Source: Roseinatronobacter monicus
GTDB lineage: Bacteria > Pseudomonadota > Alphaproteobacteria > Rhodobacterales > Rhodobacteraceae
DNA: 64,000 nucleotides
Assembly: GCF_006716865.1 (NCBI RefSeq)
Contig: NZ_VFPT01000001.1
Coordinates: 2,847,001-2,911,000 of the forward strand
Reading direction: 5' to 3'
Numbering within the stretch: the first letter of the stretch is position 1; every line of letters starts with the position of its first letter. Position numbers and translations under genes: made by a program. Below the pieces are notes generated by a model that worked only from the letters and a program-made list of their open reading frames with translations, had not been told where the DNA came from and ran no database searches. Positions 18,565 through 39,173 of this stretch are shown here, in pieces.

Positions 18565-19878
18565 TTAGCCATGTGAGCCAACGCGGCGCAGGATCAAGGG
18601 TCGATCCGGGGCAGATGCGCCGATCTGGCAGGCAGCCTGAAATGCCTGAGCAGCGCGCCGGGCTGCGGCGTCATCTGCGGCATGGACGCGCGCAATTGCG
18701 CTGCCCCGTGTGACGCGCGCGCCTTCGGGTGCAATATCCGAGAAGCCCACGCGCGGGTCAATCCTGTCGCTCGGCTGTCGCCTGCCGCCACCCAGCGCGA
18801 TGACCGCCATCCCGATGGCGCGCGTGTCATGGCCCGCGATCACACCGTCTTGGGGGGCGGTCACCTCAACCGTCACAGGGGCGGACGCAAGATAGCTGGC
18901 GGGACGCTCCAGCAGATCGCGCGGCCCGCCAAGCGCTGCCACCATCTGCCCGAAGCACTCCGCCGCACGGCCAGAGTGCAAGGCCCGCTCGACCATAGCG
19001 CGCGCGTGCGCGGCATCCGGTGCCAGACCCGCCAGCACCAGCCCTTCCGCGCCCAGCGCACATGTCATCTCCCACAGGCGGGCCGGCACTGCGCTCCCGG
19101 TCAGAAAGTCCAGCGCGAGCGCCACTTCCAGCGCGTTGCCCGCCGCAGGTGCCAGCGGGGTGTTCATATCGGTAATCAGCGCGGTTGTGCGGCACCCTGC
19201 CCCATTTGAAACCGCGACCAGTGCCTGCGCCAGCGCGTCCGCCTGCGCCAGATCGGCCATAAACGCGCCATTGCCGCATTTGACATCCAAAACCAACGCA
19301 TCCAGCCCCGCCGCCAGTTTCTTGGACAGGATCGAGGCGGTTATCAGATCGAGTGATTCCACCGTCGCCGTGACATCGCGCACGGCGTAGAACCGCTTGT
19401 CTGCGGGCGCAAGCTGGCCTGTTTGGCCGATAATGGCACAACCGACATCGCCCACAACCTTGCGCAGCAGGGCCAAGTCCGGCGCGGTGGTATAGCCCGG
19501 TATCGCCTCCAGCTTGTCCAGCGTGCCGCCTGTATGCCCAAGGCCCCGGCCCGAAATCATGGGCACCACGGCCCCGCACGCCGCTAGCACGGGGGCCAGC
19601 ATCAGCGATACTGTATCGCCGATACCGCCGGTGGAATGCTTGTCCAGAACCGGCCCTTTGTCCCAGTGCAGCACATCGCCGGAATCGCGCATGGCTTCGG
19701 TCAGGGCCACGCGTTCGGGCAACGCCATGCCATTCAGCACGACCGCCATTGCAAAAGCGCCCAGTTGCGCATCACTTAAACTGCCATCCGTCATGCCCTG
19801 CACCAGCGCGGCGATCTCGTCGCGCCTAAGGGGGGCGCCATCGCGTTTGCGCCGAATGAGTTCCTGATACAGCATCAT
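18565..19878 (-). CDS. deoA: Thymidine phosphorylase
   Basis: Cleaves thymidine with phosphate to thymine and deoxyribose-1-phosphate in nucleoside salvage. The 437-residue length fits the DeoA family. Conserved elements are LIRRKRDGAPLRRDEIAALV at the N-terminus, the signature region DKHSTGGIGDTVSLMLAPV that forms the phosphate and nucleoside site, MISGRGLGHTGGTLDKLEAI, and the C-terminal domain with DRIDPRVGFSDIAP. ATG 19878 is chosen (AGGTGA 8 bases upstream); the open frame extends to 19962 but overlaps the divergent thioesterase start and does not resemble the family. Confidence 0.95.
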   Translation of the reverse strand: MMLYQELIRRKRDGAPLRRDEIAALVQGMTDGSLSDAQLGAFAMAVVLNGMALPERVALTEAMRDSGDVLHWDKGPVLDKHSTGGIGDTVSLMLAPVLAACGAVVPMISGRGLGHTGGTLDKLEAIPGYTTAPDLALLRKVVGDVGCAIIGQTGQLAPADKRFYAVRDVTATVESLDLITASILSKKLAAGLDALVLDVKCGNGAFMADLAQADALAQALVAVSNGAGCRTTALITDMNTPLAPAAGNALEVALALDFLTGSAVPARLWEMTCALGAEGLVLAGLAPDAAHARAMVERALHSGRAAECFGQMVAALGGPRDLLERPASYLASAPVTVEVTAPQDGVIAGHDTRAIGMAVIALGGGRRQPSDRIDPRVGFSDIAPEGARVTRGSAIARVHAADDAAARRAAQAFQAACQIGASAPDRPLILRRVGSHG

Positions 19879-26912: not shown

Positions 26913-28433
26913 TTATTCGCCGCGCGGGAAGCGTTTGCTGTCTTCGAGGATGTTGAGGTCCATGTGATTGCGCATGTAGCGCTCTGACGCTTTTTGCAGC
27001 GGTTGGAAGTCCCACGGGTAGTAGCCGCCTTGCCGCAGCGCCTCATAGACGACCCAGCGGCGGGCCTGACTTTCGCGCACTTCGGCATCGAAGCGGGCCA
27101 GATCCCAGCGTGCCTCGGACTTGGCACGCAGGCTGGCCAAGGCGGCTTGATGCACCGGGTCATCGGCAAGGTTGCGCTGCTCTTGCGGATCTGCCTGCAA
27201 ATCGAACAGCAATTCCGGATCGAGCATGCAGCGGGTGTATTTCCAGCGCCCGTCGCGCAGGCAAACCAAAGGTGCCTCTGACCCTTCAGCAGCATATTCC
27301 ATGGCCACTGGGCTGGTGCGCGCCACGCCTTGCCCCAGCGGCACAAGGCTTTCGCCGGTGGTCCACGGCATGACTTCTGCCATGCTGACACCCGCGAGGG
27401 CGCATAATGTCGGGCAGACATCAATCGTGCTGACAGGCGCATCAATCCGGCCTGTCGCCATGTCAGGCGCCGCGATCATCAGGGGCACGCGGGCTGAGCC
27501 TTCAAAGAAGCTCATTTTATACCACAAGCCACGCTCCCCCAGCATATCGCCGTGATCGCTGACGAAAACCACCACGGCTTGCTGGCGTGTTGCCTCCAGC
27601 GTGCTCAGAACCTCGCCAATCTTGTCATCCAGATAAGAGATATTGGCGAAATAAGCGCGCCGCGCGCGGGCCACCATGTCCGGTGTCAGATCATAGGACC
27701 GCCAGTCATTGGCGTCAAAGATCCGCTTTGAATGGGGGTCTTGCTGCGCGTAAGGGATTGGCGCGACCTCAGGCACCAGATGGGCGCAATCGGCGTAGAG
27801 ATCCCAGTATTTCTTGCGCGCCACATACGGGTCATGCGGATGGGTGAAGCTGACTGTCAGACACCATGGCCGCGCATCGGCCCCGCGTGCCAGATCATAA
27901 ATCTTCGATACCGCATGATGCGCAACATCGTCATCATATTCCATCTGGTTGCTGATTTCGGCAACGCCTGCGCCCGTAACCGACCCCATATTGTGATACC
28001 ACCAGTCAATCCGCTCGCCGGGTTTACGGTAATCCGGCGTCCAGCCAAAATCGGCAGGGTAGATATCGGTGGTCAGACGTTCTTCAAACCCGTGCAACTG
28101 ATCGGGGCCCACGAAATGCATCTTGCCCGACAGGCAGGTATAATAGCCCGCGCGCCGCAAATGGTGGGCATAGGTCGGGATGCTGGAGGCAAATTCTGCC
28201 GCATTGTCATAGACCCGCGTGGCACTGGGCAACTGCCCTGACATGAAACTCGCCCGCCCCGGCGCGCAGAGCGGTGAGGCCGTGTAGGCATTGGCAAAGC
28301 GCGCAGACCGGGCCGCCAGCGCCTTGAGGTTGGGCGCATGCAGCCATTCGGCGGGTCCGTCAGGAAACAGCGTGCCGTTCAACTGATCCACCATCACGAT
28401 CAGGATGTTTGGCCTTGCGCGATCATGGGTCAT
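26913..28433 (-). CDS. betC: Choline sulfatase
   Basis: A 506-residue formylglycine sulfatase that hydrolyses choline-O-sulfate to choline and sulfate. The signature SPLCAPGR carries Cys56, modified to formylglycine. Metal-site elements are VMVDQ near residue 15 and SDHGDMLGERG. The C-terminus ends WDFQPLQKASERYMRNHMDL, the choline-sulfatase C-terminal domain that distinguishes it from other sulfatases. No choline transporter, betA or betB is adjacent, so glycine-betaine formation would rely on genes elsewhere. Cytosolic: no signal peptide. Confidence 0.92.
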   Translation of the reverse strand: MTHDRARPNILIVMVDQLNGTLFPDGPAEWLHAPNLKALAARSARFANAYTASPLCAPGRASFMSGQLPSATRVYDNAAEFASSIPTYAHHLRRAGYYTCLSGKMHFVGPDQLHGFEERLTTDIYPADFGWTPDYRKPGERIDWWYHNMGSVTGAGVAEISNQMEYDDDVAHHAVSKIYDLARGADARPWCLTVSFTHPHDPYVARKKYWDLYADCAHLVPEVAPIPYAQQDPHSKRIFDANDWRSYDLTPDMVARARRAYFANISYLDDKIGEVLSTLEATRQQAVVVFVSDHGDMLGERGLWYKMSFFEGSARVPLMIAAPDMATGRIDAPVSTIDVCPTLCALAGVSMAEVMPWTTGESLVPLGQGVARTSPVAMEYAAEGSEAPLVCLRDGRWKYTRCMLDPELLFDLQADPQEQRNLADDPVHQAALASLRAKSEARWDLARFDAEVRESQARRWVVYEALRQGGYYPWDFQPLQKASERYMRNHMDLNILEDSKRFPRGE

Positions 28434-28616: not shown

Positions 28617-30275
28617 TTACCCTTGTTTCTTTGGGTGTGTGCGCGCGCAGATGATCTGTATCTTTTCCTCGATTTCCTTTGGCCCCACCGGCTTGGTCAG
28701 ATAGTCATCCATGCCGACGCTCAACGCAGTCTCGCGTTTCTCGATCATGGCATCGGCAGACAGGGCGATAATCGGGGTGTAGCGGCGTACGGCGGCGTTC
28801 TCCCGACGTCTGAGTTCGCGCGTCGCTTCCAGCCCATCCAGCACGGGCATTTCGATATCCATGACAACCACATCGTATTCTTGCGCTTCCCATGCGGCCA
28901 GCGCTTGCTGCCCATCTGCGGCAACGTCAAAGCTGTGACCAAGACGGCGCAGGTAATGCGACAGGATCATTCTGTTGGTTGAATTGTCATCGACAATCAA
29001 CACATGACGCGGACCAGAGGCTTTCTCTTCCGGGTGGGCAACTGCCTTTTGCTGGGGTTTCGCATCGGGCTGGGCCAACGCTATGGGTATGCGGGTGGTA
29101 AAGGTTGAACCACGGCCAAGACGACTTTCAACTGTGATTTCACCGCCCATCTGTTCGCTCAGAAGTTTGGAAATCGACAATCCAAGCCCTGTGCCCCCGT
29201 AGCGTCGGGTGGTCGAGCTGTCAGCTTGTGAGAAGACATTGAACAGCCGCGAGATGGCTTCGGCAGAAATCCCGATCCCCGTATCGTGCACCGACATCTC
29301 CAACAGTCGGATATCCCCTTCGGTCCGGTCCCCGACATTTACCGTGATTTGCCCCGCCTCGGTGAATTTTGTCGCGTTACCCAAGAGGTTTGAAAGTATC
29401 TGACGAATACGCACGGGGTCGCCAATATAGAATGTCCCCTCCAGATTGATCGCCAATTCGGTCGTGACACCTTTGGCCGCGGCGGTCGGCGCATAGAGCG
29501 CTTGCACCGACTTGACCAATGCGCGCAGATCAAACTCTTCCGGGTTAATCTCCATCGAGCCGGACTCGATTTTTGACAGATCAAGAATGTTGTTCAACAG
29601 CTCCATCAACGAGCGCCCTGAATCCATCATGACATCCAGCCATTCCCGTTGTTCTGGCGTGATGTCAGTATCGGCAAGGATACCCGCAACGCCCAGCACA
29701 GCATTCATGGGCGTCCTGATTTCGTGACTCATTGTGGTCAGGAATGCACTTTTTGCACGGTTGGCTGCGTCTGCCTGTTTGCGCTGTTCATCCAGCGCGG
29801 CGGCAAGCGCGCGCGTTTCGGCAAGCAAACCAGAGCGCATTTCGGCCGCGAGCATCATATCCAGCGTTCCGTCAGTCGGCGAGAAATCTGCGATACGCAA
29901 CTGCTGCGTGCTCTCGCGCTCTCCAAGGTCGGGGATATGGCCAAGCAACAGCCAGATATGTTCCCCACGATCAAGCACCAGACCACGCAATCGCAGGGCC
30001 GCGCGCCCCCTCAGTCGCAAGATGACGGCGCGGCGGTGCTGGCGCAATTGCGTTATGCAACGGACAGTGGATGGCAGCTCGATTGTCACGCAGTCAAAAA
30101 AGTCGCGCTCCAGAAGCTCTGTTCCGATGTGGCGCAGCAGGGAAGGGCCAGCCTCGGCTATGCGGCCTTGGGCGTCGAGCTTGAGATAGGCAGGGAAAAG
30201 CCTTGCCATATCTTCATCCGACAGCGACAGGCCAACGGGCATCAGTCCCTGTTGCTGGGGCATGTTCTCATTCAT
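28617..30275 (-). CDS. HNOBA-domain hybrid histidine kinase (NO-responsive, H-NOX partner)
   Basis: A 552-residue cytoplasmic hybrid kinase. Residues about 18-150 match the HNOBA domain of guanylate cyclases: FPAYLKLDAQGRIAEAGPSL, then LRLRGLVLDRGEHIWLLLG, then LRIADFSPTDGTLDMMLAAE. A coiled coil (about 145-175) leads to the HisKA helix FLTTMSHEIRTPMNAV with phospho-acceptor His184. The HATPase has an N-box NLLGNATKFTEA and G-boxes DTGIGI and YGGTGLGLSISKLL. A C-terminal receiver has VDDNSTNRMILS, DIEMPVLDGLEA and a KP motif. ATG 30275 overlaps the H-NOX stop (ATGA-type), so the two are co-translated. The receiver implies a further phosphotransfer step to a partner not seen here. Confidence 0.93.
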   Translation of the reverse strand: MNENMPQQQGLMPVGLSLSDEDMARLFPAYLKLDAQGRIAEAGPSLLRHIGTELLERDFFDCVTIELPSTVRCITQLRQHRRAVILRLRGRAALRLRGLVLDRGEHIWLLLGHIPDLGERESTQQLRIADFSPTDGTLDMMLAAEMRSGLLAETRALAAALDEQRKQADAANRAKSAFLTTMSHEIRTPMNAVLGVAGILADTDITPEQREWLDVMMDSGRSLMELLNNILDLSKIESGSMEINPEEFDLRALVKSVQALYAPTAAAKGVTTELAINLEGTFYIGDPVRIRQILSNLLGNATKFTEAGQITVNVGDRTEGDIRLLEMSVHDTGIGISAEAISRLFNVFSQADSSTTRRYGGTGLGLSISKLLSEQMGGEITVESRLGRGSTFTTRIPIALAQPDAKPQQKAVAHPEEKASGPRHVLIVDDNSTNRMILSHYLRRLGHSFDVAADGQQALAAWEAQEYDVVVMDIEMPVLDGLEATRELRRRENAAVRRYTPIIALSADAMIEKRETALSVGMDDYLTKPVGPKEIEEKIQIICARTHPKKQG

Positions 30276-30813
30276 GGTGCAGTGTTCGCTTGATGATGAA
30301 AAGCGCGCCCCCGTCTTCCAGATGAAATGAAATTATGACGTTTTCCTTAAATCGGATTGCGACGGCTTGCAAAATGCCCTGCACGAAGGGGGCAAGCCCG
30401 TTTCGGGTTGACCGGTAGCGTAGCTGCATCTGCTCGGTATCGACCGAGATCAACTCAAACGATGGCATTTCGGCCTTTGGCATATTGGATCGGATACTGG
30501 CATGCATCCTATCAAGGCTTTCCAGAAATGTAACGAAATCATCCCCCGCCATCTGCAAAATACGGCCATATTCAGACGCCCCGGCAAAATCGATCCAGAC
30601 CCCGCCGAATTCATGCAATGCAGCGTCAAGCGGCATATTCAAACGCTCTGCAATCAGGCAGATCAGCGTCATGGTCGTTTCATCGGAATAATAGTCCATG
30701 CCGATAAACAGCGGTTGCTTCAGGCCCGCATCTTGCAGCAGTGCAGCCCAGCCAGCATCTCCCATATGCTGAATTGCCATATCCCGCAGTGCTTGATGAA
30801 TCATCCCGTACAT
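30268..30813 (-). CDS. H-NOX haem nitric-oxide sensor protein
   Basis: A 181-residue stand-alone H-NOX protein that binds haem and senses NO (some relatives bind O2). It starts MYGMIHQALRDM, the family start. The proximal haem ligand is His104 in LDRMHASI; Pro117 in MPSFE and the porphyrin-carboxylate motif Y-x-S-x-R (YRSTR, residues 133-137) follow, then GLAPFVQGIL. ATG 30813 is chosen over an open-frame extension to 30894 because it gives the family start and follows GGAAGG. It is translationally coupled to the HNOBA kinase downstream and divergent from the NO synthase gene, so the kinase is its probable output. Confidence 0.95.
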   Translation of the reverse strand: MYGMIHQALRDMAIQHMGDAGWAALLQDAGLKQPLFIGMDYYSDETTMTLICLIAERLNMPLDAALHEFGGVWIDFAGASEYGRILQMAGDDFVTFLESLDRMHASIRSNMPKAEMPSFELISVDTEQMQLRYRSTRNGLAPFVQGILQAVAIRFKENVIISFHLEDGGALFIIKRTLHHE

Positions 30814-31141
30814 GTCAGCCTTCCCGCATTTGCACTCTGCGCAGTGAAATCTGCAAAGTGACGCTTGCAATGACGCCCAAGCACGCGGGCACACACCTAG
30901 ACATATGTAACGCGCTTGGCGCGCTGCAAGTGGGCCGCATCACCCGAAGGTATTACAGCACGGGCACACCACATACCAATTTGGCGCACCGCTTTTGGCG
31001 TGACGGTCAAGCCACAGGGGAAAAGGAGTACCACTGGCATCCGCTCAATTCCATCTGTCCGAGTTTTTCGACTCAGCTACCACATCTCCCATTAGATATG
31101 GCAGATTCCGGTTAATTACACGTTATCATCTCGATTTGTGT

Positions 31142-31159
31142 TGTACCTTTCTCGGTACA
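31142..31159. promoter_or_regulatory. Perfect inverted repeat TGTACC-N6-GGTACA
   Basis: Two 6-bp arms separated by six bases form an 18-bp palindromic site 204 bases before the NO synthase start. It sits in an AT-rich zone and has the size of a dimeric regulator operator. The regulator is unknown. Confidence 0.5.
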
Positions 31160-31213
31160 TTATTCGATGAACACAGAATGACCTAAAAATTTCACGTGAC
31201 ACACGCAAGAGTA

Positions 31214-31228
31214 ATTTCTAAAAGAAAT
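31214..31228. promoter_or_regulatory. Perfect inverted repeat ATTTCT-N3-AGAAAT
   Basis: Two 6-bp arms around AAA, 134 bases upstream of the NO synthase start codon. Too short for a terminator and AT-rich, it is more likely a protein-binding site. Confidence 0.4.
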
Positions 31229-31349
31229 CACTCAACGTCAGTATGTTCTAGGGCCAGTGAAGAAAAATGCGTTTCACCAATATCGTGAAGGGGTGTCTGA
31301 CGCGGTGGATTGGATAAGCCGCGCGCTCGGTCAAGGCCGAAAGACACAC

Positions 31350-31355
31350 AGGAGG
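31350..31355 (+). promoter_or_regulatory. Shine-Dalgarno AGGAGG that selects the TTG start of NO synthase
   Basis: A consensus AGGAGG with 7-base spacing to TTG 31363. No ATG lies in a comparable position, so the gene starts with TTG. Confidence 0.8.
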
Positions 31356-31362
31356 ATAAGAA

Positions 31363-34300
31363 TTGAACAAAGTTTCCTTGTCGGAATCGTCCGCGCGCGG
31401 CGCGCGTGCGGTAGAGCCGCGGGCGGCCAATAACACAGCGCTTTCTTCCGTTGAAAAGGTACTGATCCGCGACTGTTGGAACAAATTTATTGCGCAAGAT
31501 GCAGTGCTTATCGGCCTTTTTTTCGAGCGCCTTGTGTCTCATGTTCCGGCATTGGAAGACGCCCTCGGGCTGACTGCGGTGCAAGCCCCGACAGAATTCC
31601 TCATGCTGTTTGATCTTGCTATACGCGACCTCGACCCCGCCCATGAGGACGCGTTGCGAGAGGCGTTTCATATCGCGCCCGGCGCACGCGAAGCGCGGTC
31701 GCGCACGATCCCCGAATGCGGAACATTCTTTGCAACCTATGGCATGACGCAAGAGACATGGGAAATCGCGCGCGACGCTTTCCTTTGGGCCTTTTCCAAG
31801 GCCGCCTATCTGGAAGACTATGAACGCACCGACCTTGAACGCGGCGACGACTCGGCGCTTGGGCGGTTTTTCATGCTGCATATCGAAGCGCCCATGAATA
31901 CGCTGCGCGAAACGCAGGACAGCGCACTTGCCCCAGAAGCCGTTGCCAAGATGCGCGCGGGCGCCGAAGCGATGCTCGCGCATCCCCAAGAGGCAGGTGT
32001 CTTTTTCTACAAGACACTTTTCGACGCACGTCCTGATCTGGTCAGCTTGTTTCGGACAGCGAATATGGACGCGCTTTCGCGCCACCTGATCGACACCGTG
32101 GTGTTCCTGAGCCGGGCCGCTGACGACCTCACTGGGTTGCGCGACGATCTGCGCAATCTGGCGCGGGTGCATCAGGTCAACCAGATTCCGCCCTCCGAAT
32201 ATGCGCACCTCGCCGCCCCTCTGCTCGAAACCTTGTCGCGCTTTGGTCACCCATTGGATGCCCAAATGATCCGCGGTTGGGAAGTGCTGTTTGACCGCGT
32301 GTCACGGATCATTGCCGAGCCGATGATCCAGCAAGAGCATATTCTTGCAGAAGCGCAGAAATTCATTGACCAAGTGTCAATCGAGTTGGATTGGTCCGGG
32401 TCGAAAACCCAAAAGCGCCTGAATGCAATTGCGCGCGAAATTCGCGCGACCGGAACCTATACACATACCAACGAAGAACTTGACTACGGCGCCAAGCTGG
32501 CGTGGCGCAATGCGCCCAAATGTATTGGCCGGATTTCGTGGAAGAACCTGATCGTGCGGGACTTTCGCCATGTCACGGATGCCAATTCAATATATGATGA
32601 ATGCATCCAGCACCTGCGGACCGCGACCAATGGCGGCAACATCGAAATCGTGCTGACCGTATTCCGGGCGCTCGCACCCGGCGAACGCTGGGGACCGCGC
32701 CTGTGGAACAGTCAGTTGGTGCGTTACGCGGGCTATGAAATGCCTGACGGCACGAAACGCGGGGATCGCGCCAATATCGAAGCGACGCGCGCCATAACCA
32801 ACCTTGGTTGGACCCCGCCAGAGCCGCGCGGCGACTATGACATTCTGCCACTTGTCATCGAATTGCCGGGCGACACGCCAAAAATCTACCCGATTGACCC
32901 CAAAGAAGTTTTGGAGGTCCAGATATCCCACCCGACAGAGCCGAAGATCGCAGAGCTTGGCATGAAATGGTGCGCGGTTCCGGCCATCTCGAACTTTCAG
33001 TTAGAGATCGGGGGCGTTGTCTATGGGTGTGCGCCCTTCAACGGGTGGTTCATGGGCACGGAGATCGCGCGCGACCTGTGGGAAGAAGGGCGCTATGACC
33101 GCGCAGCAGAGATTGCCGATGCGCTTGGCCTTGATACATCAAGCGAGCGGACACTCTGGCGCGACCGCGCCTTTCTCGAACTGAACATCGCAATCCTGCA
33201 TTCTTTTCAGGAAGCGCGCGTGACACTGGTCGATCATCAGACCGCATCGCGGCAATTCATGATCCATGATCTGCGCGAGAAGCGCTCTGGCCGTGAATGT
33301 CCGGCGCAGGGCTCTTGGGTTGTGCCTGCGGCAGGCGGCTCGACCACCCCCGTCTGGCACCACGAGATGCGGGATTTCCACCTCAAGCCGTCGTATAAAT
33401 ACGCCCCGGACCGGTGGCTTGCACATGCCGATGACGCACCATCAGGCGATGCGACGGCAGAGCAGCCTGAACGCACCCGGACTGCGCGCCCCTTGATTGT
33501 GTATGCGTCGGAGACGGGCACAGCAGAAAGCTATGCGCATCAGGCCGCGCGCCGCCTTGCGGGACTTGCGCCAAGCGTGAAAGCGATTGAGGATATCAGC
33601 CTGAGCGATCTTGCAAATGCGTCGCGGGTGCTGGCAATCGTGGCCACGTGCCGCGACGGCGATGTCCCCGAAAGTGGCGAGGCTTTATTGGCGCAGCTTA
33701 ATGACGCTACAGCCAACGCGCTTGCAGGGACATCCTTTGCCGTTTTGGGCATCGGCAATCGCATCTATCCGCATTTTTGCCGCGCGGCGGTTACCGTAGA
33801 TGCCGCGCTGGTCAAAGCCGGTGCAAACCGCATGGCGAGCCTGGAGACAGCAGACGAGATTGCCGGTCAGGCCGACACGGTAAAACGCTGGATCGAGATG
33901 TTCCAGAAACGCTGGGGCACGGACCAACCGGTTCAGGTCACGCGCCGCCCGCTTATCGAATTGATCCCGCCACAGCGCACCCCAGAGATTGAACCGCTCG
34001 AGACTGGCGTCATCAATTTCAACACCGAGATGCTGAACAGCGACCAAGCGATAAATGGCGTGCGCGACAGATCGACCCGCTATATCGGCATCGATTTGCC
34101 AAAGGCGCTGATCGCAAAATCCGCGCCCGGAAAGGGGTGTTATGATGTCGGCGACCATGTGGCGATCTATCCGCATAACCCCGCCGATCTGGTCGCGCGC
34201 CTTTGCGCGCACCACGGCTTGCAACAAGATGCATGGTTTCGCGCACAAGGCGCATCAAACGAAGCGCTGGACCGGTTCCGCGACGGGTACTCGGTTCATA

Positions 34301-35352
34301 AACTGTTGACAGAAGAACTGGACCTTGCGCTGCCACAAGCGCCGGATGAACTGCTGTCAGCAATGGTGCAGGTTGGCGGTGATGGAAGTGACCGCCTTGC
34401 CAATTGGCTGCGCATCCTGAATGGCGAGGATGACGGCGCCGAGCGACAGGGCTTGCTTGGCCGTATGCGGCAAGATTATCCAACGGTGGTTGATCTGCTG
34501 GATTCCTTTCCAGACAGTGTTCCCGCTTTCGAGCTTTTGATACAATTGCTGCCCAGACTGAAGCCGCGGCTGTACTCGATCGCGTCCAGCCCGCACGCGC
34601 ATCCCGAACAGATACGGATCATGGTCAGTGTGCTGAGCATCGCGCAACCGGGCGGGCGTTTGGCGCAAGGGGTTTCATCGCACTATCTGGCGCAGCAAGC
34701 ACCGGGCGCAAAGGTGCGCATCGCCTTGAAGAGCGCGCCACGGCGGCTGCCCGATGCGCCGGATGGTCCCACTGTCATGATCGCGGCAGGCACCGGCATC
34801 GCGCCCCTTTATGCAGCATTGGAAGACCGTGTTGCACAAGGCGCGCGCCCACATGCAGACAAGACTGTCGCGCTGTATTTTGGCTGCCGCAATGCAGACG
34901 AATTTTTGCAGCGCGAACGCATCAGAAGTTGGCGCAAAGACGGGTTTCTAAGCCGTGTGAATGTTGCCTTCTCGCGCGCGGGTCCGGCGAAAGCATATGT
35001 TCAGGATGCGCTTGATGCAGATGGCATATCCGTTGCCAAAGACCTGCTGCATCCTGCGGGTCATGTGATAATCTGTGGCGACGCCAAGATGGCGCATGAT
35101 GTCGAAAATCGCCTTGTCGTCATCTTGCAGCGTGATGGTGGGCTAAGCTATTCCGGGGCGCATGAATTGCTCGACCGTATGCGCGAAGAAGGGCGCTATA
35201 TCGGCGACATTTGGGGCATTCAGATGAATTTCGATGTTGCGGTGCCCGCGATGATACATGCCCAGTATAATCGGGGTGCGAGCTGGCTGGCGCGGTTGCG
35301 GCACTCTTTGAAAGGACGCCCTGCGCAGATCGACAGCATTCAGAAATTCTGA
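31363..35352 (+). CDS. nos: Self-sufficient nitric oxide synthase with tandem N-terminal globin domains
   Basis: 1329 residues; makes NO and citrulline from arginine, O2 and NADPH. Globin-like domain 1 (about 26-180) has Phe123 where the proximal His should be, judged from spacing to Trp133. Globin domain 2 (about 185-325) keeps the proximal His270 in LARVHQVNQIPPSEY, as in flavohaemoglobins. The NOS oxygenase (about 330-690) has the haem-ligand Cys387 in WRNAPKCIGR, Glu567 in GWFMGTEIA for arginine, and Trp652 in the pterin region before TPVWHHEM. After a 25-residue linker without a calmodulin-type basic helix come the FMN domain (YASETGTAESYA, 710-850) and FAD/NADPH modules (RLYSIASS at 1069; AAGTGIAPLY at 1141; C-terminal GRYIGDIWG). 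The layout resembles the globin-NOS of Synechococcus PCC 7335. It is divergent from H-NOX and its kinase. Confidence 0.95.
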   Translation: MNKVSLSESSARGARAVEPRAANNTALSSVEKVLIRDCWNKFIAQDAVLIGLFFERLVSHVPALEDALGLTAVQAPTEFLMLFDLAIRDLDPAHEDALREAFHIAPGAREARSRTIPECGTFFATYGMTQETWEIARDAFLWAFSKAAYLEDYERTDLERGDDSALGRFFMLHIEAPMNTLRETQDSALAPEAVAKMRAGAEAMLAHPQEAGVFFYKTLFDARPDLVSLFRTANMDALSRHLIDTVVFLSRAADDLTGLRDDLRNLARVHQVNQIPPSEYAHLAAPLLETLSRFGHPLDAQMIRGWEVLFDRVSRIIAEPMIQQEHILAEAQKFIDQVSIELDWSGSKTQKRLNAIAREIRATGTYTHTNEELDYGAKLAWRNAPKCIGRISWKNLIVRDFRHVTDANSIYDECIQHLRTATNGGNIEIVLTVFRALAPGERWGPRLWNSQLVRYAGYEMPDGTKRGDRANIEATRAITNLGWTPPEPRGDYDILPLVIELPGDTPKIYPIDPKEVLEVQISHPTEPKIAELGMKWCAVPAISNFQLEIGGVVYGCAPFNGWFMGTEIARDLWEEGRYDRAAEIADALGLDTSSERTLWRDRAFLELNIAILHSFQEARVTLVDHQTASRQFMIHDLREKRSGRECPAQGSWVVPAAGGSTTPVWHHEMRDFHLKPSYKYAPDRWLAHADDAPSGDATAEQPERTRTARPLIVYASETGTAESYAHQAARRLAGLAPSVKAIEDISLSDLANASRVLAIVATCRDGDVPESGEALLAQLNDATANALAGTSFAVLGIGNRIYPHFCRAAVTVDAALVKAGANRMASLETADEIAGQADTVKRWIEMFQKRWGTDQPVQVTRRPLIELIPPQRTPEIEPLETGVINFNTEMLNSDQAINGVRDRSTRYIGIDLPKALIAKSAPGKGCYDVGDHVAIYPHNPADLVARLCAHHGLQQDAWFRAQGASNEALDRFRDGYSVHKLLTEELDLALPQAPDELLSAMVQVGGDGSDRLANWLRILNGEDDGAERQGLLGRMRQDYPTVVDLLDSFPDSVPAFELLIQLLPRLKPRLYSIASSPHAHPEQIRIMVSVLSIAQPGGRLAQGVSSHYLAQQAPGAKVRIALKSAPRRLPDAPDGPTVMIAAGTGIAPLYAALEDRVAQGARPHADKTVALYFGCRNADEFLQRERIRSWRKDGFLSRVNVAFSRAGPAKAYVQDALDADGISVAKDLLHPAGHVIICGDAKMAHDVENRLVVILQRDGGLSYSGAHELLDRMREEGRYIGDIWGIQMNFDVAVPAMIHAQYNRGASWLARLRHSLKGRPAQIDSIQKF

Positions 35353-35973: not shown

Positions 35974-37224
35974 CTATAAATGCGCCAGCCTGCGCGCAAT
36001 CAGCCAGCTTGCCGCCGCCATCACCCCCGCAGTGGCAAGGCAGAGCGGCAGACCGCCGAACTGATAGCTGATCCCGGAAAGCAATGTGCCAAGCAACCGC
36101 CCAGCCGCATTTGCCATGTAATAGAAACCGACATCGCGTGTGATCCGATCTGCCGCGCCGAAGGCAAGGATCAGATAGGAATGCACCGCAGAATTCAGCG
36201 CAAAGACAAAGCCAAAGATCAGCAAGCCCACAACCAGCAGCCCTGTCAGCCACGGCGCCGGAGCATCAGCAAATGCCGCCGCAAGCGCGAGCACAGCAGG
36301 GATCGGCACCAGCACCCCCGCCCAGAGGATGGCTTTTCGGGCTATGGCCTGTTCGGACTGGCCCTTACGCCCCAACAAAGCGGGTGCAAAAGCCTGCACC
36401 GCGCCATACCCGATGATCCACAGCGCCATGAACCCGCCCACCAGAAAGAAGGCCTCGCGCCGCCCCTCTGCTGTGCCGTCGGACAAGACGGCCTGAAAAT
36501 AGATGGGAATGCCCACCACAAACCACACATCGCGCGCACCAAACAGGAACAGACGCGCAACGCTCAGGCGGTTGACGCGCGGGTCATGCGACCGCCAGCC
36601 AGACCATGTATCGGCCCCTTTCATCCGCCCCGGCAACCCTTCGGGCAAAAACAAAAGGACAGCGGCCAGAATGACCACCAACACCCCCGCCATGCCCCAG
36701 ACTGCCGCCTGAAACCCAGCTGTCGCAAGCAGGGCCGCGCCCAGAAAGAACCCGGCGCCCTTGACCGCGTTCTTTGATCCGGTCAGCAAGGCCACCCAGC
36801 GAAACAAGGCCCCCTCTTGCGCAGGTGCCAGCAGCTTCACGGCCGATTTGGAGGACATCTTGGACAGGTCTTTGGCCACACCAGAGACACCCTGCACAGC
36901 CATTACAAACACGACCGAGGCCGCGATGGTCCAGTCAGGGTCCAGTTGCGCCAGCGCGGCCAGAGCCGCGATTTGCAAGGCCAGCCCCGCATATAGCGTG
37001 GCCGCCAACCCGAACCGCGCCGCCAGCCAGCCCGCAGCAAGATTGGTGATGATCCCGGCCACTTCATATAACACAAACAGCCAGGCCAGTTGCACAGGGG
37101 TGAAGCCCAGCGCGTTGAAATGCAACAGCACCAACATCCGCAACGCGCCATCGGAAAGCATAAAGGCCCAATAAGCGGCAGTCACGGCCATGTAAGCGCG
37201 CAAGGGGTTTGCTGTTGTGGTCAC
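35974..37224 (-). CDS. arsJ: Organoarsenical efflux transporter ArsJ
   Basis: A 416-residue major-facilitator protein with about 12 hydrophobic helices. Its sequence (AYWAFMLSDGALRMLVLLHF, then KDLSKMSSKSAVKLLAP and LFLFGARDVWFVVGIPIYF) is the ArsJ pattern. ArsJ exports 1-arseno-3-phosphoglycerate formed by the partner GAPDH from arsenate and glyceraldehyde-3-phosphate, thereby removing arsenate. It is the last gene of a three-gene minus-strand operon after the ArsR-ArsC fusion and the GAPDH, with a 100-base intergenic repeat before it. Neighbours make the assignment secure. Confidence 0.92.
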   Translation of the reverse strand: MTTTANPLRAYMAVTAAYWAFMLSDGALRMLVLLHFNALGFTPVQLAWLFVLYEVAGIITNLAAGWLAARFGLAATLYAGLALQIAALAALAQLDPDWTIAASVVFVMAVQGVSGVAKDLSKMSSKSAVKLLAPAQEGALFRWVALLTGSKNAVKGAGFFLGAALLATAGFQAAVWGMAGVLVVILAAVLLFLPEGLPGRMKGADTWSGWRSHDPRVNRLSVARLFLFGARDVWFVVGIPIYFQAVLSDGTAEGRREAFFLVGGFMALWIIGYGAVQAFAPALLGRKGQSEQAIARKAILWAGVLVPIPAVLALAAAFADAPAPWLTGLLVVGLLIFGFVFALNSAVHSYLILAFGAADRITRDVGFYYMANAAGRLLGTLLSGISYQFGGLPLCLATAGVMAAASWLIARRLAHL

Positions 37225-37251
37225 GGCTGGGCCTTATTCTGAGGGGGGAAA

Positions 37252-37322
37252 GGGGGGCTGTCTGCCCCCCTCTTGCCCGTTCCGGGCAATTCACCCCCCG
37301 AGAGTATTTTGAGCAAGAAAAT
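37252..37322. repeat. REP-like intergenic element with two GC hairpins
   Basis: Two adjacent hairpins, GGGGGGC-N5-GCCCCCC (37252-37270) and TTGCCC-N5-GGGCAA (37273-37289), are followed by CACCCCCCGAGAGTATTTTG and an A-rich tail. This arrangement is, from memory, a very common intergenic repeat in Rhodobacterales genomes. Only one copy was noticed in this window. It separates gapdh from arsJ and could attenuate transcription between them. Confidence 0.6.
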
Positions 37323-37325
37323 GGA

Positions 37326-38351
37326 TCACAGGCTGTGCGTAATCATGCGGGTGATGTCGCCAAGACGGCAGGCATAGGCCCATTCATTGTCATACCATGC
37401 ATAGAGTTTGAGTTGCGTGCCGCCTGTCACCATTGTTGAAGGGCCGTCGATGATGGCAGAGCGCGGGTCATTGGTGTAATCGCAGGACACAAGGGGCCGG
37501 GATTCAAAGCCCAGAATACCCTTGAGCGGGCCTTGCGCAGCCGCTTGGAACAGGGCGTTGACCTCATCGACCGTGGTGGCGCGCTCCATCTCGAACACGC
37601 AATCGGTGAGCGAGGCGTTCAGCAAAGGCACGCGCACAGCATGGCCGTTTAGCCTACCTTTCAGTTCCGGATAGATCAGCGTGATCGCAGTGGCGCTGCC
37701 TGTCGTGGTGGGAATAAGATTTGTCAGGGCAGAGCGCGCGCGGCGCATATCTTTTGCGGGGCGGTCGACGATGGTCTGTGTGTTGGTGACGTCATGGATG
37801 GTGGTGATTGATCCGTGGCGGATGCCAAGCGCTTCGTGAACCACCTTGACTACAGGGGCAAGACAATTGGTGGTGCAGCTTGCTGCTGTGATGATCTGGT
37901 GTTGGCCCGGATCATAAAGGTGGTGGTTCACACCATAGACCAAGTTCAGCGCGCCATCGTCCTTGACAGGGGCGGATACGGCGACTTTCCGGACACCCGC
38001 GTTGAAATAGGGGGCGAGTTTTGCACCTGTCTTGAACACGCCTGTGCAATCAATGACCAGATCGACCCCCATCTCGGCCAGCGGCAGGTCTTCGATCCGG
38101 CGCGCGTGGGTCAGACGGATCGGCTGCCCGTTTAGCACAAGTGCGCCCGCGTCATAGGCGACAGGGGTCGGCCAGTGCCCGTGGACGGAGTCGAATTCCA
38201 TCAGCAGCGCGTGCTGCTCTGCATCGCCCACGGGATCGTTCAAGAGCACAATCTCGCCACCTGAACCGGTATCGATCAGATCGCGCAGCACCAGCTTGCC
38301 GATGCGCCCAAGCCCATTCAGGGCAATGCGGGGACGGTCGTCTTGGATCAT
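37326..38351 (-). CDS. ArsJ-associated glyceraldehyde-3-phosphate dehydrogenase
   Basis: A 341-residue GAPDH homologue with Rossmann motif [15 protein letters not shown] and catalytic cysteine in [11 protein letters not shown], followed by the His region [11 protein letters not shown]. In arsJ operons this enzyme forms 1-arseno-3-phosphoglycerate from arsenate and glyceraldehyde-3-phosphate for export by ArsJ, instead of serving glycolysis. It starts three bases beyond the arsR-arsC stop codon and is therefore co-transcribed. NAD versus NADP preference cannot be read with confidence. Confidence 0.93.
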
Positions 38352-38354
38352 GTG

Positions 38355-39173
38355 TCAGGCTCTTTCCTGGGTGAGGGCATTGGTATCAATCGTATCGATA
38401 CGGGTTTGCAGGGCCGTCCGGTCGACCGGCGGTTGTGGCAAGGCGACAAGCTCTGCCAGCCGTTTGCGCAACGCATGATAGGTTTGGGCGAAGGCCTGCG
38501 ACGCGGCGGGATCAGGCAGGCCCCAATGCCCCATGACCGGACAGCCCGCCCAAGGGGGGCAGTCCTGCGCGGCAGCCTTGTCGCAAACCGTAATCACAAT
38601 ATCCAGCGCTGGCGCATCGGCGCGCTGAAATTCCGAGAGGTGTTTGGAGCGCAGACCTGACACATCATGACCATTGTCGCGCAAGGTTTGCAGGGCTTCG
38701 GGATGCGGGGTTTGGGCGGGCTGAATACCGGCGGAATAGGCGCGGAACCGCCCCTTGCCCAGATCGTGCAACAGCGCCTCGGCCATGATCGAGCGGGCCG
38801 AGTTTCCCGAGCACAGGAACAGCACGCCTAGCGTCATATCCCCGCCGCAAGGGTGATGCCGGGGCACGATCGGGGCCAGCAAATCGGCACGCGCGCGCCC
38901 GACATCGAATGCAAGATAGCCAATCAGCGCGTCTGTCCGGTCCTGATTGACGCTGTAGAAAAGCGACCGGCCTTGCCGCGTGACCTCCAGCAAGCCGGTC
39001 GATGTCAGCTCGCCCAAGTGATGAGACAGGGTGTTCTTTTTCAACCCTAACATCTGCGCAATCTCGGTCGGGCGCTGCGCGCGGGGAGCAAAGCGCATCA
39101 GAAGGCGCAAAATCGCCAACCTGTCAGGGTGACAAAGCGCTGCGAACAGCGCGGCTGCAATCCGTGAATCCAT
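38355..39173 (-). CDS. ArsR regulator fused to ArsC-type arsenate reductase
   Basis: A 272-residue two-domain protein. Residues 1-100 are an ArsR winged-helix repressor (IAQMLGLKKNTLSHHLGELT is the recognition helix region). Residues about 114-245 are a low-molecular-weight-phosphatase-fold arsenate reductase with the P-loop LCSGNSARSIMAEALL starting at residue 120, nucleophile Cys121. The combination could both repress the operon and reduce arsenate to arsenite. It is the first gene of the operon with GAPDH and ArsJ. The arsenite-sensing cysteines of the ArsR part cannot be placed with confidence (Cys14 is a candidate). Fusions of this type occur in arsenic operons. Confidence 0.9.
   Translation of the reverse strand: MDSRIAAALFAALCHPDRLAILRLLMRFAPRAQRPTEIAQMLGLKKNTLSHHLGELTSTGLLEVTRQGRSLFYSVNQDRTDALIGYLAFDVGRARADLLAPIVPRHHPCGGDMTLGVLFLCSGNSARSIMAEALLHDLGKGRFRAYSAGIQPAQTPHPEALQTLRDNGHDVSGLRSKHLSEFQRADAPALDIVITVCDKAAAQDCPPWAGCPVMGHWGLPDPAASQAFAQTYHALRKRLAELVALPQPPVDRTALQTRIDTIDTNALTQERA

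Follow-up and report, generated by a model that had tools for sequence, protein, structure and literature searches.

A predicted globin-fused nitric oxide synthase lacking a C2 domain is encoded head to head with an H-NOX and a hybrid histidine kinase in Roseinatronobacter monicus

The window, that is the whole stretch of 64,000 nt analysed here, comes from Roseinatronobacter monicus (GCF_006716865.1, NZ_VFPT01000001.1, positions 2,847,001-2,911,000 of the forward strand). It carries a predicted nitric oxide synthase/NO dioxygenase (NOS/NOD) gene at 31363..35352 (+ strand), called from its 1329-aa open reading frame, its Pfam matches and an AGGAGG motif (31350-31355) located 7 nt 5' of a TTG start, which aligned with the TTG of two relatives. 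At E ≤ 0.001 the protein matched 385 proteins, and the list was headed by 19 proteins of 1312-1357 aa with 68-98% identity. No RNA families were found near the gene, and a search for plasmid carriage gave 200 matching plasmid records, none of which covered more than 80% of the query.

The chain is composed, all on the + strand, of a pseudoglobin (residues 27-186, 31441..31920), a haem globin (residues 187-321, 31921..32325) with Phe230 at CD1, His270 at F8 and Tyr216, a NOS oxygenase (residues 324-685, 32332..33417) with Cys387, Glu567, Ile542 and Trp562, an FMN flavodoxin domain (residues 712-840, 33496..33882) that includes Ala834, a FAD and NADPH reductase module (residues 927-1248, 34141..35106) and a C-terminal tail (residues 1284-1329, 35212..35349) delimited by alignment to SyNOS of Synechococcus sp. 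PCC 7335. Pfam recognised NO_synthase (PF02898, 324-685, E 4.5e-141), Flavodoxin_1 (PF00258, 712-840), FAD_binding_1 (PF00667, 927-1108) and NAD_binding_1 (PF00175, 1139-1248). The oxygenase-only class does not fit this protein, as a reductase is present and oxygenase-only NOS form a separate clade in the oxygenase tree.

The globin pair was less evident from profiles. Pfam Globin matched residues 214-314 barely above the cut-off (23.2 bits versus 22), and residues 26-188 had no Pfam globin match. Against solved structures at E ≤ 0.001, these latter residues found SyNOS chains only (E 1.2e-23, SyNOS 180-338, the haemless pseudoglobin); the haem globin domain matched SyNOS 337-472 (E 6.4e-15), and also single-domain globins and flavohaemoglobins. 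AlphaFold2 modelling of residues 1-330 (mean pLDDT 79.3) gave globin folds, for which Foldseek placed SyNOS best, with both globins covered (TM 0.78, rmsd 2.4), followed by other globins. Comparison of the pseudoglobin with the globin by hhalign (E 4e-5, probability just 69) plays a supporting role only. The first-pass annotation had proposed two globin-like domains at residues 26-325, one degenerate and one intact, followed by a full NOS oxygenase and a full FMN/FAD/NADPH reductase, and this anatomy was borne out throughout: Phe230 and His270 are retained in the second globin, while across 29 rows of the first no His column reached even 90% conservation. It had named the loss of haem- or arginine-binding residues as what would speak against it, and these residues are kept. 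Cys387 and Glu567 were invariant in a 16-row alignment; in a larger alignment of 117 tabulated rows (74 short and 43 long, 4 intermediate rows being left out), the Cys387 column held C in 115 rows and a gap in 2, and the Glu567 column held E in all 117. Trp652 and Arg570, which we take to be pterin-site residues, were also invariant in the 16 rows. As a separate observation, the R. monicus genome holds two PTPS-family genes (pterin route).

The closest described enzyme is SyNOS, known from cryo-EM (PDB 9Q05, 9Q06, 9Q0X, 9Q0Y, 9Q15), with which the window NOS shares 42% identity over 97% of the query (residues 27-1312 against SyNOS 177-1468) and the order pseudoglobin, globin, NOS oxygenase, flavodoxin, FNR and C-terminal tail. 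The tail of the window NOS is 17 residues longer. At the N-terminus, SyNOS has a C2 domain and a 44-residue linker, whereas the window NOS has 26 residues ahead of the pseudoglobin. A C2 profile gave no hit at E ≤ 10 when run against the six-frame translation of the window, and the alignment shows C2 to be missing throughout the clade of the window NOS. Since all the other SyNOS-type domains and key residues are present (pseudoglobin, CD1/F8 globin, Cys/Glu oxygenase, reductase and tail), the window NOS is a relative of the SyNOS type that lacks one part, rather than a full member. The NOS of Sorangium cellulosum is another bacterial enzyme with its own reductase within one chain, of a different domain order and reductase type; it is cited in PMC9500659.

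Lys987 of SyNOS corresponds to Ala834 in the window NOS. Over 69 short rows, this column held Ala in 58, Ser in 10 and Leu in 1, a count that leaves out five rows of low identity (41-42%; P0079, P0086, P0102, P0115 and P0120). These five, also without C2, carry R, R, N, K and K. A coupling between the loss of C2 and the loss of the Lys987 contact was therefore rejected, and the change is a clade marker, not a consequence of C2 loss. At Glu568, a C2 contact in SyNOS, the change is partial (E in 46, Q in 23 and another residue or a gap in 5 of the 74 short rows).

Head to head with the NOS gene, on the other side of a 549-base divergent intergenic region (30814..31362), lies a gene for an H-NOX protein of 181 aa from its ATG (30268..30813, - strand). 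It matched the HNOB family (PF07700, E 8.5e-41) and has the proximal His104, Pro117 and the YxSxR motif (133-137), which were conserved in all 32 H-NOX sequences compared. Among solved structures Nostoc H-NOX Alr2278 was the best match (E 2.3e-34), and soluble guanylate cyclase (sGC) beta1 also matched; the His, Pro and YxSxR are common to bacterial H-NOX/kinase pairs, Alr2278 and animal sGC. The H-NOX stop overlaps by 8 bases a gene for a hybrid histidine kinase with Pfam HisKA, HATPase and REC domains (28617..30275, - strand). A kinase gene adjoining H-NOX is described as frequent in bacteria in the accessible text of PMC9500659. Whereas sGC makes cGMP, the partner of the window H-NOX is a kinase. 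The N-terminus of this kinase gave a weak HNOBA-like match (E 0.0031), below the Pfam cut-off; as the matches over four kinases were sub-threshold, in two of them (0.0031 and 0.023), we do not claim an HNOBA domain. No sigma-70-like or other promoter-like site was found in the 549-base region, which was strongly diverged in a binding-site comparison of three sequences only.

The NOS, H-NOX and kinase genes occur together in all three testable alphaproteobacterial loci, the window counted. The two others show identities to the window of 77% (NOS), 69% (H-NOX) and 77% (kinase) in L087, and of 71%, 68% and 72% in L007. Two of the three testable loci stem from genomes that are 79% and 71% complete. 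The eight other window neighbours tested were not found in either of these two relatives' loci at 1e-6. A further genome (G435) is consistent with the same layout, split by a contig break. With the own genome counted, PF02898 was present in 3/37 sampled genomes of the genus, 3/394 of the family and 1/385 of the class; in one of the three family genomes the oxygenase lies in two frames, with no H-NOX nearby. Of the 34 genomes of the genus that lack NOS, 2 carry the alpha-type H-NOX/kinase pair. For the more distant C2-less rows, such as P0020-P0049, of which some are named Amaricoccus, the search turned up no genomic locus.

Spirosoma globin-NOS, already noted for Spirosoma linguale (Correa-Aragunde 2018, in its accessible part), have the same domain order, form the sister group in the oxygenase tree (96/86) and likewise adjoin H-NOX and hybrid kinase genes. 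All 13 testable loci show the order H-NOX, kinase, LytTR regulator, NOS on one strand; one of them (G845) has its H-NOX split over two reading frames, perhaps as a broken gene. Of 14 Spirosoma loci, 10 encode C2, which the window NOS lacks; 3 do not, and 1 was left uncalled. The Spirosoma sets differ from the window by another H-NOX subfamily, a PAS/HPt kinase, the added LytTR regulator and the single strand instead of the head-to-head arrangement, and in the H-NOX tree the alpha and Spirosoma sequences form distinct clades (100/100). Given these different H-NOX clades, kinases and orientations, either the pairing arose on two occasions, or one sensor replaced another and the link to NOS persisted. 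H-NOX was found in 14/14 NOS-bearing versus 6/22 NOS-less Spirosoma genomes (Fisher p 1.3e-5, a count that ignores the kinship of genomes within each lineage). The three-gene set of H-NOX, kinase and LytTR was present in 6 of the 22 NOS-less genomes, and an aldehyde dehydrogenase gene follows it in 3/3 of those typed. One genome (G847) also has a second, broken H-NOX copy away from NOS; the 18 NOS-linked rows of the motif comparison include this copy, and the count of 32/32 holds irrespective of it. In the flanks examined, no H-NOX was found beside the NOS gene at 59 loci of the oxygenase-only kind or at 14 cyanobacterial loci other than that of SyNOS.

From gene order and domain content, we consider it probable that the locus encodes a C2-less NOS/NO dioxygenase coupled to a sensor kinase under H-NOX control, as the bacterial equivalent of NOS plus guanylate cyclase. 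Arginine would be oxidised at the oxygenase haem with electrons from NADPH, in a single self-sufficient chain, and, by analogy with SyNOS, the globin haem may turn surplus NO into nitrate, with the same FAD module as its reductant. With no C2 and no basic residue at the position that contacts the C-terminal tail in SyNOS, we infer that the enzyme would not need Ca2+. The divergently encoded H-NOX could sense the NO made and would control the overlapping kinase, and the phosphorelay output would perhaps feed back on the shared 549-base control region. In the accessible literature, the NO that reaches bacterial H-NOX is traced to the host or to the cell itself, through its metabolism or denitrification, whereas here a NOS lies in the same locus; NirK and NirS had no match in the R. 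monicus genome. That this is a closed NO module, Ca2+-independent and assembled independently in Alphaproteobacteria and Spirosoma, we hold to be evenly balanced. The occurrence of the sensor genes without NOS (2/34 in the genus, 6/22 in Spirosoma) counts against the reading of a NOS coupled to an H-NOX kinase, as do the loss of NOS activity in SyNOS without C2, the possibly broken H-NOX of G845, the few usable alpha loci (3) and the rarity of NOS in the family (3/394).

A nitrogen salvage pathway, in which arginine nitrogen is brought to nitrate and the H-NOX kinase is merely a safety sensor that tunes NOS/NOD upon NO leak, appears unlikely. With SyNOS, E. coli could live on arginine as its only source of nitrogen, according to the accessible text of PMC6104048, NOD activity is reported for the SyNOS globin (PMC12922734, accessible text), and the window globin is intact; but NO oxidised in situ leaves a dedicated sensor beside NOS in two lineages unexplained. 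Somewhat less probable still is an enzyme that makes no NO and acts as a flavohaemoglobin under NO-sensor control. The accessible text of PMC12922734 describes the C2 of SyNOS as Ca2+-responsive, and deletion of C2 abolished NOS activity while the globin was reduced about as fast as before, so that the C2-less window enzyme could be NOS-dead; also, no other PF00042 globin is present in the R. monicus genome, hence no Hmp was recognised. Yet a dead oxygenase would be expected to decay, whereas the haem Cys and arginine-site Glu are kept in the C2-less rows and the presumed pterin-site Trp652 and Arg570 do not vary; some Spirosoma enzymes lack C2 as well. As for an adjacency that is coincidental or due just to shared mobile transfer, without functional link, the sensor genes found without NOS and the kinship of genomes inside each lineage would agree with it, but the recurrence in two lineages with differing H-NOX subfamilies, kinases and orientations, the 0/73 control loci and the Spirosoma association make it very improbable.

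The two-globin architecture is not new, because SyNOS has the same pseudoglobin and globin. The first-pass interpretation held for the anatomy, and its idea of NO oxidation to nitrate gains support by analogy with the SyNOS globin rather than from the window protein; a claim to novelty is not supported, and the loss of C2 and the adjacent H-NOX/kinase genes had been overlooked. Distinct from what is described for SyNOS are the clade-wide absence of C2 and the H-NOX/kinase adjacency. No pairing of NOS with H-NOX was found in print in the accessible parts of the open-access literature searched.

The natural C2-less clade offers a test of the need of C2 for NOS activity put forward in the SyNOS report, and raises the question of what replaces it. 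The source of the NO detected by quorum-sensing circuits is posed as a question in the accessible text of a review (PMC6769237), where NO is perhaps not self-synthesised. With NOS and an H-NOX kinase sharing a locus in two lineages that are far apart, signalling by NO of the cell's own making can be put to a direct test, with Spirosoma fluviale DSM 29961 as one possible host, and the pairing points to a self-made NO signal such as is best documented in animals.

The NOS gene (31363-35352, + strand) encodes 1329 amino acids from a TTG start, with AGGAGG 7 nt before it and TTG at the equivalent position in two relatives. Reading of the ORF and alignments of homologues showed that the coordinates and the residues Cys387 and Glu567 given by the first-pass annotation were correct. 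Trp652 and Arg570, which we take to be pterin-site residues, did not vary across 16 aligned rows. Pfam recognized NO_synthase, Flavodoxin_1, FAD_binding_1, NAD_binding_1 and a single Globin.

Among solved structures, residues 187-321 matched the globin of SyNOS, the globin-NOS of Synechococcus PCC 7335 (6.4e-15), and likewise single-domain globins and flavohaemoglobins; Phe CD1 (230) and His F8 (270) are retained. For residues 26-188, the sole match at E<=0.001 was SyNOS, over its pseudoglobin (1.2e-23), the one other line being a DNA ligase at 0.4. Structure prediction of residues 1-330, the check suggested with the annotation, gave a globin fold: the AlphaFold2 model (29 alignment rows) had a mean pLDDT of 79.3, with values below 50 at 1-23 and 100-109, and Foldseek placed SyNOS at the top (TM 0.78, rmsd 2.4, 301 columns), other globins coming next. 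No His of the first domain was invariant or 90% conserved in the same 29 rows. Taken together, these matches, residues and model confirm the proposed degenerate and intact globins as a pseudoglobin and a haem globin. In one homologue (P0098), the globin proximal His is replaced by Leu, and haem binding is perhaps unusual. In Symplocastrum (L011), another globin-like segment, at 24% identity and 6e-8, lies about 4.6 kb past NOS (18567-18959).

The architecture, put forward as a novelty, is not new. By phmmer, residues 27-1312 aligned to SyNOS 177-1468, and the cryo-EM paper on SyNOS divides that enzyme into six domains: C2 (1-134), a haemless pseudoglobin (179-339), a globin (340-473) with reported NO dioxygenase activity, oxygenase, flavodoxin, and FNR with a tail (PMC12922734). 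A globin-NOS of Spirosoma linguale has been on record since 2018, according to the available text of PMC6104048. Unlike SyNOS, the window protein has no C2 domain; it represents a known type of enzyme in a variant form lacking this part.

The protein search, in which scoring was limited to the 7988 candidates sharing most words, returned 385 homologues at E<=0.001, and the best 120 of the 385 were aligned with the window protein (121 rows). Ahead of the pseudoglobin, 74 rows have fewer than 60 residues (5 of them, with 0-3, are fragment-like and uninformative on C2), 4 have 67-101 and 43 at least 162. A C2 profile made from the long rows matched in 13 of 14 cyanobacterial loci, the exception being the truncated L016, as well as in Paraliomyxa (L018) and in 10 of 14 Spirosoma loci, being absent from L115, L119 and L121, with L111 in neither class. 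It found nothing in loci L087, L007, L092, L022 and L027, nor in the six-frame translation of the window. In the oxygenase tree, Spirosoma is sister to the window clade (96/86) with cyanobacteria outside, and the earliest branches are L022 and L027, both without C2. From this tree order and distribution, C2 would most simply have been gained after L022/L027, with one later loss at the root of the window clade and another inside Spirosoma; the loss in L115, L119 and L121 is a separate event by the tree.

Deletion of C2 left SyNOS inactive as a NOS in vitro, according to the available text of PMC12922734; therefore, natural C2-less enzymes either function without C2 or are not synthases. An alternative in the latter sense is an enzyme acting only as NO dioxygenase under NO control. 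However, C2-less rows of the homologue alignment keep the haem Cys and the arginine-site Glu, which, with the conservation of Trp652 and Arg570, favours synthases working without C2. At the place of SyNOS Lys987, the window protein has Ala834, and the 69 rows of its clade have 58 Ala, 10 Ser and 1 Leu. Since both C2 and a basic residue at this place are missing, the enzyme is probably Ca2+-independent.

The first-pass annotation, sound on the enzyme anatomy, missed the adjoining gene. Divergent from NOS and 549 bases away, it encodes an H-NOX, a predicted NO-sensor haem protein (30268-30813 from ATG, - strand; PF07700, 8.5e-41), whose best solved matches are Nostoc H-NOX Alr2278 (2.3e-34), then soluble guanylate cyclase beta1 (2.6e-15). 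Its stop is overlapped by a hybrid histidine kinase gene (28617-30275; HisKA, HATPase, REC). Such H-NOX proteins are known as NO-binding inhibitors of a partner kinase. A choline sulfatase gene (26913-28433, - strand) adjoins the kinase, and an arsenic cluster lies near NOS (35974-39173, - strand: ArsJ transporter, ArsJ-associated GAPDH, ArsR-arsenate reductase fusion). Two more H-NOX copies of equal score, on two contigs of the same genome (L105, C1:56129; L107, C4:219403), are not members of the clade that holds the window H-NOX.

The same divergent arrangement of H-NOX, kinase and NOS was found in L087 (genome G026) and in L007 (G035, a Natronohydrobacter sp. MAG), where none of 8 other window neighbours tested was detected at 1e-6. 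The pairing thus holds in 3/3 testable loci of the window clade, window included. Genome G435, with NOS at the end of one contig and H-NOX (63%) and kinase (73%) at the start of another, is consistent with it and was left out of the count. The same H-NOX and kinase occur without a NOS match in two genomes (G001, G013), and five further NOS-less genomes of the genus carry an H-NOX of the other type; alpha-type H-NOX is associated with NOS in the genus (Fisher p 0.0013, kinship ignored). In G350, of the same family, H-NOX lies about 2 Mb from a NOS oxygenase of non-globin type as far as seen; this oxygenase is split over two reading frames and apparently broken (L093, C1:2888731-2889796).

In Spirosoma, NOS is present in 14 of 36 genomes, and H-NOX in 14/14 of these versus 6/22 NOS-less ones (Fisher p 1.3e-5, kinship ignored). 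Thirteen of the 14 have the two genes on the same contig, each time (13/13) arranged as H-NOX, hybrid kinase, LytTR regulator and NOS along a single strand, as assigned by similarity to L008, a reference with typed domains. In one of the 13 (G845, L159 2170-2699), the H-NOX adjoining NOS is in two reading frames; in the 14th genome (G851), the locus is divided among contigs. All 6 NOS-less genomes with H-NOX have the three sensor genes, followed by an aldehyde dehydrogenase gene in 3/3 typed cases (L164, L168, L169); such a gene is near H-NOX in L170 too. Thus, the sensor can occur without NOS, and no sensor-less globin-type NOS was found in the testable loci of the two lineages.

With flanks of at most 10 kb, some much shorter, the H-NOX profile had no match in 59 oxygenase-only NOS loci (L028-L086), 14 cyanobacterial and 3 myxobacterial or delta loci. 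Whole-genome search of cyanobacteria with NOS revealed H-NOX in 1 of 13 (Microcoleus G816), on a contig other than that of NOS, which is cut immediately ahead of the NOS gene. In genomes G818 and G822, H-NOX is on contigs other than that of NOS, which is well within its own.

In the H-NOX tree (32 rows), the alpha type grouped with a Microcoleus sequence and was separated from the Spirosoma type (100/100), the only split relied on given the long branches of this tree. Kinase N-termini and gene orientation also differ between alpha and Spirosoma sensors. The NOS groups are sisters. Hence, either recruitment of the sensor happened on two occasions, or one sensor was exchanged for another with the link kept. 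Either route speaks for function.

Beside the observed gene order, domains, conserved residues and recurrence, a scheme can be proposed by analogy with SyNOS, in which arginine would yield NO at the oxygenase and NO would be converted to nitrate at the globin. NO would also act through H-NOX on the kinase, and the control region that the divergent genes share would perhaps allow feedback. NirK had no match in the window's genome, G026, G035 and G435 (G026 and G035 incomplete), nor had NirS in the window's genome, G026 (incomplete) and G435; the incomplete G035 gave one NirS match of 38.7 bits in all. The PF00042 search of the window's genome recognized NOS itself only and no ordinary flavohaemoglobin; the globin fused to NOS may serve the cell as its NO dioxygenase. 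In the open-access literature, we found no report of NOS paired with an H-NOX sensor kinase; the interest of the locus lies in this pairing, which two lineages show.
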